This document shows positions 31,570-55,069 of a DNA stretch of 64,000 nt, in pieces. The translations under genes were made by a program, and so were the position numbers. Positions within the stretch are counted from its first letter, which is position 1, and each line of letters opens with the position of its first letter. The notes under the pieces were generated by a model that saw nothing but the letters and a program-made list of their open reading frames with translations, did no database searches and was not told where the DNA came from. Source of the stretch: Flavobacteriales bacterium (GTDB lineage: Bacteria > Bacteroidota > Bacteroidia > Flavobacteriales_E > Vicingaceae); assembly GCA_002401955.1 (NCBI GenBank), contig NVUQ01000004.1:1-64000 (forward strand), given 5' to 3'.

Positions 31570-32571
31570 TTAATCTATTTCGTTGTAATCACCTACGCTT
31601 AATTCTTGTGAATTGTTGTTTATTTTAACAAAGTTTCCAATCATTGAGTTACTTAGTGTTGAGTTATTAATTGTTGTATTGGTTTGAATAATAGTATTAG
31701 AAATTGTTGAATTTTCTATTACCGTATTTTCTCCAATTGAAACATGAGGCCCAACTGTTGCATTTTTTAACACTACATTTTCTCCAATAAAACAAGGCTC
31801 TATAATTTTTGAGGCTTCATTTTTTAATGAGGAATCGACTATGTTTTCGTCTTTAATGTGTTCTAAAACTCGCTGATTTGTATAAACAGTAGCCTTGTAA
31901 TTACCACAATCTAACCATTCTTTCACTTCTCCTGGTACAAATTTTGTGCCTTTTTGCTTCATGTTCTCTAAAGCGTTAGTTAATTGAAACTCCCCTTTAT
32001 CGGTTATGTTGTTGTCAATTAAGTATTGCAATTCATTTTTAAGATATTCTCCATCTTTAAAATAATAGATTCCAATAATAGCGAGATCAGAAACAAATTC
32101 AGTTGGTTTTTCTACGAAGTCTGTTATAATATTATCACCATTTAATTTTACAACTCCAAAAGCACTTGGATCATCAATTTGACTTACCCATATAATTCCT
32201 TCAGCATCTGCATCTAAAGTAAAATCAGCTCTAAAAAGTGTATCTGCAAAAGCAACAACAACATTACCTTTTAAACTGTCTTTAGCACAAAGGATAGCGT
32301 GCGCAGTTCCTAAGGCTTCTTCTTGATGATAAATACTTCCTTTCGCACCTAAACTCTCTGCAACAGCAACTAAATCTTTTTCAACTTGATCACCAAAATC
32401 GCCAATAATAAAAGCAATTTCATCAACTGTTTCTCCACAAACTTTGGTAATGTCTTCAACTAAACGTTGTACAATTGGTTTTCCTGCAACAGGAACTAAA
32501 GGTTTAGGAATTGTTAATGTGTGAGGTCTTAATCGAGATCCTCTTCCTGCCATTGGTACTATAATTTTCAT
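31570..32571 (-). CDS. Sugar-phosphate nucleotidyltransferase with left-handed beta-helix tail
   Basis: This 333-aa enzyme has the nucleotide-binding motif PMAGRGSRLRPHT and PKPLVPVAGKPI at its N-terminus, typical of RmlA/GlmU/ManC-type NDP-sugar pyrophosphorylases. The C-terminal ~80 residues form isoleucine/valine-rich hexapeptide repeats (PHVSIGENTVIENSTIS). It activates a sugar-1-phosphate with NTP; which sugar is not clear. A solo copy of the S23 element's palindromic end lies just upstream (32594-32640), between this gene and dut. Confidence 0.88.
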   Translation of the reverse strand: MKIIVPMAGRGSRLRPHTLTIPKPLVPVAGKPIVQRLVEDITKVCGETVDEIAFIIGDFGDQVEKDLVAVAESLGAKGSIYHQEEALGTAHAILCAKDSLKGNVVVAFADTLFRADFTLDADAEGIIWVSQIDDPSAFGVVKLNGDNIITDFVEKPTEFVSDLAIIGIYYFKDGEYLKNELQYLIDNNITDKGEFQLTNALENMKQKGTKFVPGEVKEWLDCGNYKATVYTNQRVLEHIKDENIVDSSLKNEASKIIEPCFIGENVVLKNATVGPHVSIGENTVIENSTISNTIIQTNTTINNSTLSNSMIGNFVKINNNSQELSVGDYNEID

Positions 32572-32593
32572 TTTCCTATTGTAATAATTTGAA

Positions 32594-32640
32594 AATGTAA
32601 CAATTAAACAATTGCTACATTTAATAATTGTTTATTTACT
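32594..32640. repeat. Solo copy of the S23-element right-end palindrome
   Basis: AATGTAACAAT then a short spacer then ATTGCTACATT and AATTGTTTATTTA align without gaps to the right end of the element at 53958-54405 (from 54354), with 38 of 47 bases identical. The inverted pair AAATGTAACAATT / AATTGCTACATTT forms a hairpin with one mismatch. No gene accompanies it. The last bases reach into the end of dut. Confidence 0.65.
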
Positions 32641-33070
32641 TTTTTCCTGTACTTCCGAATCCTCCAGCACCTCTTTTGGTATCAGATAATTCTTCTACTA
32701 AATTCCATTCGGCTTGTTCATGTTGGGCAATTACCATCTGTGCAACTCGTTCACCATTTTCAATCGTAAAATCTTCGTTAGAAAGGTTAACTAAAATTAC
32801 ACCTATTTCGCCACGGTAATCTGCATCAATTGTTCCTGGAGTATTTAAAACAGTTAAGCCATGTTTGTAAGCTAAACCACTTCTTGGCCTAACTTGTGCT
32901 TCATAACCAATAGGTAATTCAATAAATAAACCAGTTTTAATTAAAGTTCTTTCTAGTGGTTTTAAGGTAATAGCTTCTGTTATGTTTGCTCTTAAGTCAA
33001 CTCCAGCAGCAGCTTCTGTACCATAATGTGGTAAGGGATGATTGGATTTATTTACTATTTTTATTTCCAT
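32636..33070 (-). CDS. dut: dUTP diphosphatase
   Basis: This 144-aa protein has all five dUTPase motifs in order: [53 protein letters not shown] and the C-terminal [10 protein letters not shown]. It hydrolyses dUTP to dUMP, keeping uracil out of DNA and feeding dTMP synthesis. Length is normal for the homotrimeric enzyme. It lies upstream of the nucleotidyltransferase gene on the same strand, separated by the solo palindrome. Confidence 0.97.
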
Positions 33071-53249: not shown

Positions 53250-53954
53250 ATGGCAATAAACAAAGTTGTTACAAACGCAGAAGAAGCAACTAAAGGAATT
53301 GAAGATGGAATGACCTTGATGTTAGGAGGTTTTGGCTTATGTGGTATTCCTGAAAACTGCATTTCTGAAATGGTAAATATGAATGTAAAAGGATTAACCT
53401 GCATTTCTAATAACGCAGGGGTTGATAATTTTGGATTAGGGTTATTGCTTCAGAAAAAACAGATCAAAAAAATGATTTCTTCTTATGTTGGAGAGAATGA
53501 TGAGTTTGAAAGCCAAATGTTAAGTGGAGAGTTGGAGGTGGATTTAATACCTCAAGGTTCTTTGGCAGAGAGATGTAGAGCTGGTGGTGCTGGAATTCCA
53601 GCATTTTTTACACCTGCTGGTTATGGAACTGAAGTGGCAGAAGGAAAAGAAGTAAGAGAATTTAATGGCAAACCACATATTTTAGAAAGTGCTTTAACAG
53701 CAGATTTTGCTATTGTAAAAGCTTGGAAAGGAGATACTGCGGGTAACTTGGTTTATAAAGCTACCGCACGTAATTTTAATCCTATGATGGCAATGGCAGG
53801 AAAAACTACCATTGCTGAGGTTGAAGAATTAGTTCCTGAAGGAACATTAGATCCAAATACAATACATACACCAGGAATATTTGTACAACGAATTTTCCAA
53901 GGAGTGGATTATGAAAAAAGAATAGAGCAGAGAACTACTCGCATGCGCGAATAG
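53250..53954 (+). CDS. scoA: 3-oxoacid CoA-transferase subunit A
   Basis: This 234-aa protein is the alpha subunit of a type I CoA-transferase (SCOT/AtoD family). Signatures are [36 protein letters not shown] and [23 protein letters not shown]. With subunit B it moves CoA from succinyl-CoA to acetoacetate, or a similar acid pair, in ketone-body or short-chain acid use. It starts 11 nt after the PBP gene. The B-subunit gene, usually directly adjacent, is 458 nt away because of the S23 element. Confidence 0.93.
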
Positions 53955-53993
53955 TTAAATGTAATAATTGATTAATTCTTTAATGTAACAATT

Positions 53994-54344
53994 ATGGACA
54001 AGAAAGAAAATGTTATACTTACAAAAACTATTGCTTTTTCTTTGTTAATAATTGAGTTTTGTGAAAGTTTAGAAAAGCAAAGAAAATTTGTGATTGCGAA
54101 TCAATTGTTAAAATCAGGGACTTCAATTGGAGCAAACATTCATGAAGCACAAAATGCAGAAAGTAGAGCTGATTTTATTCATAAAGTAAAAATTGCAGCA
54201 AAAGAAGTTGAAGAAGTAAAGTATTGGTTGATTTTATGTAAAGAGGCAAAATCATACCCATTTGATGAGAATTTAGAACATCATATTAAAGAAATTGGGT
54301 TGATTATTTATAAGATATTAAGTAGTAGTAAAAAATCAATGTAG
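53994..54344 (+). CDS. Four-helix bundle protein, S23/IVP family
   Basis: This 116-aa protein is an S23 rRNA intervening-sequence-type four-helix bundle. Its core is LLKSGTSIGANIHEAQNAES followed by ADFIHKVKIAAKEVEEVKYWL. Members are encoded within 23S rRNA intervening sequences of some bacteria, and as Avd accessory proteins of diversity-generating retroelements, where they bind nucleic acid and reverse transcriptase. Here no reverse transcriptase is near. The gene interrupts the scoA-scoB pair and sits inside terminal inverted repeats. Its ATG begins directly at the inner end of the left repeat, so it depends on operon readthrough or on a promoter within the repeat. Confidence 0.9.
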   Translation: MDKKENVILTKTIAFSLLIIEFCESLEKQRKFVIANQLLKSGTSIGANIHEAQNAESRADFIHKVKIAAKEVEEVKYWLILCKEAKSYPFDENLEHHIKEIGLIIYKILSSSKKSM

Positions 54345-54347
54345 CAG

Positions 54348-54387
54348 TTTTCTAATGTAACAATAGAATAATTGTTACATTAGAAAA
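54348..54387. repeat. Perfect 17-bp inverted repeat at the right end of the S23 element
   Basis: TTTTCTAATGTAACAAT (54348-54364) and ATTGTTACATTAGAAAA (54371-54387) pair perfectly around a 6-nt loop, 4 nt after the S23 stop. It may act as a recognition hairpin or as an attenuator ahead of scoB. Confidence 0.9.
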
Positions 54388-54412
54388 TTGTTTAATTATT
54401 ACATTATATAAG

Positions 54413-55069
54413 ATGTTAGATAAAGTAGGTATAGCAAAAAGAATTTCACAAGAATTAAGAGATGGTTGGTACGTTAATTTAGGTATTGGAATACCTACTT
54501 TGGTTGCTAATTTTGTTCCAGATGATATTACGGTAGAATTCCAATCTGAAAATGGAATTTTAGGAATGGGACCTTTTCCTTATGATGGAGAAGAAGATGC
54601 AGATTTAATTAATGCAGGAAAACAAACGGTAACCTTACAACCTGGTGCATCCGTATTTGATTCTGCAACGAGTTTTGCTATGATTAGAGGACAACATGTA
54701 CAGTTAACGGTTTTAGGTGCAATGGAAGTTTCAGAAAATGGAGACATTGCCAATTGGAAAATTCCTGGTAAAATGGTAAAAGGAATGGGAGGAGCAATGG
54801 ATTTAGTTGCTTCAGCTGAAAATATTATTGTTGCAATGATGCATACCAACAAAAAAGGAGAAAGTAAGTTGCTGCCTTCTTGTTCTTTACCCTTAACAGG
54901 AGTTGGCTGTGTTACAAGAGTTATAACCAATTTGGCCGCATTAGAAATTAAAGATGGAGCATTTCATTTGCTAGAACGAGCACCAGGAGTTTCTGTTCAA
55001 GAAATACAAGCTGCTACTGCAGGAAAATTGATTGTAGAAGGAGATATTCCTGAGATGCAGATTAGCTAA
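54413..55069 (+). CDS. scoB: 3-oxoacid CoA-transferase subunit B
   Basis: This 218-aa protein is the beta subunit. VNLGIGIPTLVANFV is followed by FQSENGILGMGPFP with the catalytic glutamate E46, which forms the glutamyl-CoA thioester. GAMDLVASAENIIVAMMHTN and LTGVGCVTRVITNLA complete the signature. It pairs with scoA at 53250, and the element between them is not part of either subunit. Loss of transcription through the right-end hairpin could lower B relative to A. Confidence 0.94.
   Translation: MLDKVGIAKRISQELRDGWYVNLGIGIPTLVANFVPDDITVEFQSENGILGMGPFPYDGEEDADLINAGKQTVTLQPGASVFDSATSFAMIRGQHVQLTVLGAMEVSENGDIANWKIPGKMVKGMGGAMDLVASAENIIVAMMHTNKKGESKLLPSCSLPLTGVGCVTRVITNLAALEIKDGAFHLLERAPGVSVQEIQAATAGKLIVEGDIPEMQIS

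Follow-up and report, generated by a model that had tools for sequence, protein, structure and literature searches.

An S23 gene between mirrored arrays of 8-nt words in the scoA–scoB spacer of a Flavobacteriales genome, and the periodic flanks of S23 genes elsewhere

The S23 unit between scoA and scoB

The window analysed here, a stretch of 64,000 nt from a Flavobacteriales genome, contains the genes for both subunits of a 3-oxoacid CoA-transferase on the plus strand. The upstream host gene, scoA (subunit A; positions 53250–53954), matched TIGR02429 (271 bits) and PF01144 and is of the pcaI/scoA type, and the downstream host gene, scoB (subunit B; 54413–55069), matched TIGR02428 (319 bits) and is of the pcaJ/scoB type. 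Between them, on the same strand, lies a gene with an ATG start (53994–54344) that encodes a four-helix-bundle protein of the S23/IVP family, 116 amino acids in length. Its ORF matched PF05635 with an E-value of 5e-22 and 78.5 bits (curated cut-off, 33.8) and TIGR02436 with an E-value of 2.5e-25 and 88.8 bits (cut-off, 24). The profile search found no domain besides S23 in the unit, from which a transposase is absent, and an Rfam search gave three weak matches, none of them near the gathering score. A transglycosylase/transpeptidase gene is a further upstream neighbour of the locus.

The S23 gene is enclosed by a 38-nt inverted repeat, with its left arm at 53958–53995 and its right arm at 54368–54405, which matches at 33 positions (87%) and has a local-alignment score of 51, compared with a maximum of 28 among 200 shuffles. 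A preliminary description of this DNA had reported inverted repeats on both sides of a single 116-amino-acid S23/IVP gene, and this was confirmed; the 36-bp repeat that it gave is real, but 31 rather than 30 of the 36 positions match. The two 12-mers that it had noted at each end are also present, but they are parts of an array in 8-nt phase, which had been overlooked. The left array (53958–53997, plus strand) consists of five phased units with an AAT anchor (AATGTAAT AATTGATT AATTCTTT AATGTAAC AATTATGG), and the ATG of the S23 gene falls within the fifth. The right array (54371–54410, plus strand) also consists of five phased 8-nt units, with an ATT anchor and with the words of the left array reverse-complemented (ATTGTTAC ATTAGAAA ATTGTTTA ATTATTAC ATTATATA). 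An inner copy of the word forms a right-end hairpin with the right array's first units (54338–54397, plus strand; 27-nt arms, 85% complementary), which is a helix in the predicted fold. The A+T content is 84% in the flanks and 68% in the window. Terminal inverted repeats of the kind found in classical insertion sequences and MITEs are present at the ends of the unit, and a comparison of positions 53955–53957 with 54406–54412 revealed no visible target-site duplication, the insertion being too old for this to be judged and the empty sites measuring 2–3 nt.

The scoA–scoB junction was compared in 60 genomes (that of the window and 59 relatives), of which 53 gave a scoA match and 43 allowed scoA and scoB to be read together; relatives without a scoB match within the fetched stretch were left out of the junction counts. 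An S23 gene of the window's lineage was present between scoA and scoB in 14 of these 43 genomes, that of the window included, and absent from 29. The site was empty in five members of the window's genus (G003, G004, G007, G010, and G012), with a spacer of 2–3 nt (the gap of 5 listed for G004 and G010 counts the scoB ATG as well). The preliminary description had predicted an empty site of about 10 nt in sister strains, and excision of 53958–54405 does leave scoA and scoB 10 nt apart, but the five empty sites point to an original spacer that was probably smaller than this. The 27-nt spacer of G020, a genome that clusters with two S23 carriers (93/87), keeps one AATGTAGCAAT word that resembles a scar. 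In G006 (L024), also of the window's genus, the scoA–scoB spacer, where others hold S23, is occupied by an unrelated hairpin repeat of 85 nt (CGTCATTGCGAGG... type). The scoA and scoB matches lay 1.3–1.9 kb apart, with other sequence between them, in G001, G018, G024, and G039 (L104, L088, L097, and L102; 1685 nt in G001, a member of the window's genus), suggesting that insertions may have occurred at the junction repeatedly.

Among the named genomes scanned, 57 of the 79 loci of the window's S23 lineage sat between scoA and scoB, and the genomes with this arrangement included Flavobacterium, Allomuricauda, Arenibacter, Tenacibaculum, Kordia, and others. Two contigs labelled Saccharospirillaceae (L155) and Chitinophaga pinensis (L158) carry a Flavobacteriales-like scoA-S23-scoB arrangement, with scoA 83–85% identical, and are probably mislabelled or from mixed bins. 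On a scoAB tree of 41 rows, 13 of them with S23 (G009 and G039 were dropped from the 43 as too short), the presence of S23 required 10 changes, which is no improvement on shuffled labels (mean, 11.4). The S23 and scoAB distances gave a Mantel r of 0.64 (permutation maximum, 0.31), and the nearest neighbour was the same in both for only 23 of 63 rows, which may be short-protein noise. This congruence test omitted G009 (short scoA), L171 and L184 (S23 of 93 and 64 amino acids, respectively), and L114, L115, L116, L134, and L176, which are the same contigs as relatives already included. We read the scoAB content as largely vertical, with an old insertion, many losses, and perhaps some regain, so that a new insertion there is not supported. 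A recent transposon at scoAB was rejected because the same S23 lineage occurs there in distant families, between scoA and scoB across the Flavobacteriales and in some other Bacteroidota. The preliminary description is supported in part, in that the unit is discrete, consists of an S23 gene with mirrored ends, has an empty counterpart in close relatives, and is accompanied in its own genome by other S23 units and by S23-less ends.

By the measure of dN/dS (median, 0.16; <1 in all 195 pairs with dS of 0.03–1.5), S23 in the intact scoAB copies is under purifying selection. Broken or short copies occurred in G023 (internal stop), L171, and L184. Orthologues lacking the end repeats would have spoken against the preliminary description; most scoAB copies keep the arrays, with chains of at least three AAT/ATT units at a spacing of 8 on the left of 45 and on the right of 51 of the 64 elements (0–1 at spacings of 6, 7, 9, and 10), but not all do so, and among the distant orthologues G050 (= L176) has only 3 nt to the right of the S23 gene, and in G051, G056, and L174 the end words differ or the ends are degraded.

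Periodic word arrays beside S23 genes

The genome of the window contains 16 PF05635 matches, some of them fragments, and a match was present in 45 of 61 genomes in a phylum-wide sample. From the relatives, the phylum sample (29 new loci returned and 40 further places picked), and the named genomes, 178 distinct S23 genes were kept from 224 hits in 216 loci, after S23 hits of <90 amino acids or <45 bits and exact duplicates had been dropped. Genes were called by script as the longest open frames, which adds noise to the flank limits and orientation counts. Flanks of at least 20 nt were used (162 left and 166 right), and 166 other spacers of the same loci served as controls. The S23 flanks were self-identical above chance at lag 7 (z = 15.7 left and 14.0 right), lag 8 (13.8 and 20.8), and lag 14 (8.0 and 4.7), and at none of the remaining lags from 3 to 15, whereas the control spacers gave z = 2.3 at lag 7 and 1.8 at lag 8. 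Per element, the best lag was 7 or 8 in 145 of the 178 genes and 6, 9, or 10 in seven; 22 had no period and four were too short. Counted by flank, lags 7 and 8 were found in 38 + 36 of 157 left flanks and 40 + 56 of 160 right flanks, compared with 11 + 7 of 166 controls. The scoAB elements had a period of 8 (lag-8 identity, 0.46 left and 0.52 right), and the other S23 elements mostly a period of 7, with a minority at 8. In the scoAB elements, the rows of which are related, right-hand chains most often had five units (28 of 64), and left-hand chains most often had four (17 of 64), with five in 14.

In the non-scoAB elements, the left and right arms of the same element had a mean score of 31.1, compared with 13.6 for arms paired across elements, and the own pair was in the top 5% in 80 of 102 elements and outside it in the other 22. 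In the scoAB elements, which share a word, the own-pair score was 30.8 and the cross-pair score 26.2. The left side had the higher purine content in 77 of 99 non-scoAB and 40 of 54 scoAB elements. Terminal repeats with a fixed sequence were rejected: the ends are periodic arrays whose words vary by locus, and the period and mirror symmetry are what they have in common. These comparisons show, at the level of sequence, that an S23 gene between mirrored 7/8-nt word arrays is the general architecture of most of the S23 genes examined. Across many genomes, both neighbours were codirectional in 142 of the 163 S23 genes for which both were seen. Over 456 kb of the window's genome, the same was true of 142 of the 297 triples of genes.

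When the 7/8 label was placed on the S23 tree, 9 changes were needed, compared with 26.4 after shuffling (85 rows), and none of 500 shuffles was as low. The same 9 changes were found after thinning at 75% (21.6 shuffled, 74 rows) and 65% (20.2 shuffled, 71 rows), again with 0 of 500 shuffles as low, and thinning at 55% identity gave 10 changes, compared with 12.5 (51 rows), with 29–30 of 500 shuffles as low. Judged from this tree, period and clade are clearly linked where related S23 genes occupy different loci, and the link is weak across deep clades. Strict clade control of the period holds at 85, 74, and 71 rows but is weak at the harshest thinning. The array words are not fixed by S23 clade. 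Arm length was equal for both periods (median, 29 nt), which counts against a strict five-word rule.

S23 matches were also found in 29 plasmid records, from which eight S23 genes of other phyla, chosen for spread, were taken. In all eight, the best of lags 5–10 was 7 or 8 (z = 2.2–5.8), with the weakest signals in Azospirillum (z = 2.2) and Calothrix PCC 7716 (z = 2.3). The ends were mirrored in six (Nostoc, Geminocystis, Anabaena, Picosynechococcus, Stanieria, and Azospirillum; score, 29–60) and unmirrored in Calothrix (18) and Gemmatirosa (19, with a direct match instead). The S23 genes of the Calothrix and Stanieria plasmids had both neighbours on the other strand.

Arrays away from S23 genes

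Other copies of the ends, with and without S23, for which the preliminary description had proposed a search, were found in the window's genome and in relatives. When the window's words were sought as a strict palindrome pattern, 5 of 60 genomes contained it, compared with 0 of 60 for a reversed-pattern control. All five were among the 20 genomes with the window's S23 lineage at ≥50% identity, a threshold set post hoc, and a single genus accounts for four of them. One match each in G000 and G002 comes from the right end of the scoAB element. In the window's own genome, solo palindromes were located in the nqrA–nqrB spacer and between dut (32636–33070, minus strand) and a nucleotidyltransferase gene (31570–32571, minus strand), where an S23-less mini palindrome of the same octamer words occupies positions 32572–32635 (minus strand). 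In relatives, they were located between atpA and atpG (G035), between serC and a phosphoglycerate-dehydrogenase-like gene (G009), and beside trmD (G008). The S23-less versions lie in spacers of the sort that S23 units occupy.

Among 12 members of the genus, the nqrA–nqrB spacer was empty in five (21–24 nt) and contained an array in seven (41–76 nt). These seven arrays had lag 8 in six cases and lag 7 in one (z = 2.3–3.5 in at least one half); four of them used AATG words, and the remaining three used others. In 30 genomes, the atpA–atpG spacer was array-like by eye in nine, held other inserts of 62–74 nt in four, and measured 3–35 nt in seventeen; the spacer of G028 (L326) has another 74-nt insert. 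Five of the nine array-like spacers passed numerically, four with lag 8 (AATG/ATTG words) and one with lag 7, and a group of three with AAAGTT words, together with one more, had z ≤1.9 at lags 7 and 8. The mirror scores of the nqrA–nqrB and atpA–atpG spacers were modest (10–25).

In the intergenic DNA of the window's genome (456 kb), array segments with lag 7 numbered ten, those with lag 8 five (one of which is a 4-nt repeat), and those with other lags 0–4. Some of these segments adjoin S23 genes and several do not; since arrays are common without S23, they may arise without it. Two places in this genome that are not beside S23 carry long heptad arrays of one word, (CTAACCA)n (L276, 4876–5040; L283, 16031–16187), and an S23-less array in a thiD-like/thiE-type spacer lies about 1.1 kb from an S23 gene of the same cluster (L287, 5987–6039 and 7163–7531). 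A tetranucleotide (ACTA)n array (L268, 1–96) stands at the start of contig C110 of the genome and is possibly the reason that the contig ends there.

The genome also has Y1-transposase and reverse-transcriptase genes. No mirrored 7/8-nt arrays were found at three genes of each kind (the left flanks of L343 and L344 being only 15 and 59 nt), and Y1 transposases or reverse transcriptases as the owners of the arrays were not supported by these three of each, although they may act in trans. At the Y1 genes L338–L340, the lag-8 z was <2 throughout, and the lag-7 z reached 2.9 (L338) and 2.1 (L340) on one side each. One of them, L339 (G000:C90:1837–2070), has strongly mirrored flanks (score, 63) without a 7/8-nt period and is possibly a RAYT or IS200-type element, and the flanks of L340 are weakly mirrored (25), in a way unlike the 7/8-nt arrays.

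Nature of the element and its relation to known systems

REPIN/RAYT and MITE systems are built of small palindromes that are non-autonomous and share their genome with a candidate helper gene. The elements described here are similar in having both, and differ in that the S23 unit has no transposase, its words vary by locus, and its ends are periodic arrays. An S23-like four-helix-bundle protein, Avd (model NF033474), belongs to diversity-generating retroelements. Membership of such a retroelement was rejected for the window's gene, which scored 22.6 bits with NF033474 (cut-off, 80) and has scoA and scoB as neighbours, with no reverse transcriptase.

Parallels are also found in the sections of PMC4990558 that deal with the 23S rRNA intervening sequence (IVS) of Coxiella burnetii. 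This IVS, in helix 45, is 428–444 nt long and carries an S23p ORF in sense orientation, directly preceded by two or three full tandem heptamers, depending on the strain, and its 28-bp end stem is cut by RNase III in vitro. The scoAB unit resembles it in size (448 nt), in its single sense S23 ORF, in its stem-capable inverted ends, and in the tandem words before the ORF. The unit differs in lying in the spacer of a protein operon rather than in a 23S rRNA helix, in having 8-nt words rather than heptamers, and in the purifying selection on S23, whereas the same sections report decay in Coxiella, with an S23 protein that is probably not made. They also state that rRNA IVSs replace tetraloops and that Xcc0516 is a homopentamer. 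In a sequence search, 2rld, with five chains, was the sole solved-structure match to the S23 protein at E ≤0.01. Parts of two reports on heptanucleotide repeats describe TAACTGA arrays in Beggiatoaceae, Cyanobacteria, and Bacteroidetes (PMC4679880) and GGGAATC and GGGGA(C/T)T arrays in Xanthomonas and Nostoc, with 70–75 convergent inverted pairs in two Xanthomonas genomes (PMC4692102). The 7-nt tandem words, the mostly intergenic location, and the inverted pairs of Xanthomonas are like what we describe; the difference is that our arrays flank S23 genes left and right, and that 8-nt periods occur as well. Neither report contains the terms "S23" and "four helix".

The explanation we prefer, with our confidence about evenly divided for and against it, is that the scoAB unit is a long-resident copy of a small DNA element that is widespread and consists of an S23 gene between mirrored 7/8-nt arrays; this element would be akin to the 23S IVS, and its arrays would be read by an S23 ring. 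Such elements would sit mostly in sense orientation within operon spacers. The ring, a homopentamer in relatives with a structure, would bind the array with one word per protomer, which would account for the strict 7/8-nt spacing and the common number of about five units. TRAP-type RNA-binding rings read evenly spaced words in this manner, one per protomer; the analogy would extend to the proposed reading of spaced words by a ring and not to the protein, which is unrelated to S23. Binding of S23 would mark the hairpin-forming ends, and the marked element, together with the S23-less minis, would be copied or spread as DNA by host enzymes in trans; mobilisation in trans was also put forward in the preliminary description, and we infer it here, no transposition event or enzyme for it having been found. 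The host would retain only those spacer insertions that spare genes and co-transcription, and the 23S rRNA IVSs would be the best-known special case. In a wider form, which we hold more tentatively and consider possible rather than probable, S23 would be a ring-shaped reader whose pentamer takes five 7/8-nt units of single-stranded or hairpin nucleic acid, with the period as a property of the clade. S23 genes, arrays, and S23-less palindromes would then form one DNA-element family in Bacteroidota, Cyanobacteria, Proteobacteria, and others, with the 23S IVSs and part of the heptanucleotide-repeat excess as members or traces.

Several observations count against the preferred explanation. Neither movement nor a target-site duplication was seen, and S23 was the only domain found in the unit. 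In 33 of the 178 S23 genes, the best lag is other than 7 or 8, there is no period, or the flanks are too short, the own arms are outside the top 5% in 22 of the 102 non-scoAB elements, and two of the eight plasmid S23 genes run opposite to both neighbours. In addition, the left chain mode at scoAB is four rather than five, four of the nine array-like atpA–atpG spacers fail the numerical test, and the Y1 gene L339 also has mirrored flanks, without the 7/8-nt period. The largely vertical content at scoAB, the weaker period–clade link after thinning at 55% identity, the frequent S23-less arrays, the words that vary within S23 clades, the equal arm length for both periods, and the probable lack of S23 protein in Coxiella count in the same direction.

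The unit could also act at the level of RNA, as an IVS proper in mRNA: the arms would pair in the scoA–scoB transcript, RNase III would cut the stem, the scoA and scoB messages would part, and the S23 message would be freed, with selection keeping the RNA pairing. The S23 genes are mostly sense-oriented, RNase III cleaves the Coxiella IVS in vitro (in the sections of PMC4990558 cited above), the predicted RNA fold of 53950–54412 is strong (z = −4.31), and the RNA duplex of the arms beats mononucleotide shuffles (z < −2) in 40 of 55 scoAB elements and cross-pairs in 55 of 102 non-scoAB elements. However, a DNA palindrome pairs as RNA anyway, and any palindrome would give a strong predicted fold. 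Among elements with an arm score of at least 24, the arm mismatches comprised 30 of the G-U and 49 of the A-C type in 40 scoAB elements (p = 0.04 in the opposite direction) and 52 and 51, respectively, in 69 other elements. This lack of a G-U excess argues against selection on an RNA stem, which is unsupported as the force keeping the arms, and for a process on DNA, and we consider the RNA-level account unlikely; the S23-linked RNA activity suggested in the preliminary description is, for the same reason, not favoured. The word arrays might instead be older palindromic minis, made by replication slippage and quasi-palindrome template switching, with the S23 gene entering their hairpin loops as rRNA IVSs replaced tetraloops, a parallel drawn from part of PMC4990558. 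The differing words and periods of S23-less arrays at a single site, S23-less heptad arrays in the window's genome, and words private to loci all favour such loop insertion, but the period follows the S23 clade and lag-7/8 flanks are several times commoner beside S23 than in control spacers, and we consider this origin rather improbable.

Far less probable is a domesticated regulator, in which the S23 gene and arrays are kept to tune scoA/scoB expression. The same scoA–scoB position in distant families, the purifying selection on S23, and the AATG/ATTG-type words in most Flavobacteriales scoAB copies are consistent with it, whereas the absence of S23 from 29 of 43 genomes with a patchy distribution (10 compared with 11.4 changes), the broken or short copies in G023, L171, and L184, the deviant words or missing arrays of G050, G051, G056, and L174, and the occurrence of the same architecture in many unrelated operons argue against it. 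A chance palindrome in AT-rich DNA would fit the A+T content of the flanks, but it is refuted by the failure of shuffles, control spacers, and other spacings to reproduce the pattern, and its probability is negligible.

Under the preferred explanation, the flanking-word rule would indicate which nucleic acid to offer a purified S23 protein and what outcome to expect. S23 elements would be a second candidate source of heptanucleotide repeats, for which polymerase slippage is proposed in parts of PMC4679880 and PMC4692102, and the rRNA IVSs would fall into a wider family. S23 genes, rRNA IVSs, heptanucleotide arrays, and S23 in cas loci are already known; the open full-text literature (most subscription papers and bioRxiv being outside its coverage) yielded no mention of the S23–array link, of a clade-tied period, or of S23-less minis, and the linkage of S23 to arrays is new as far as that literature goes. 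With regard to the cas loci, described in part of PMC3936711, array-flanked S23 genes lie inside the CRISPR-Cas operons of two cyanobacterial plasmids (L333 and L334), as cas6-S23-cas4 in Anabaena and cmr2-S23-cmr3 in Picosynechococcus, and this position within cas operons may explain the earlier listing of S23 as cas-associated.
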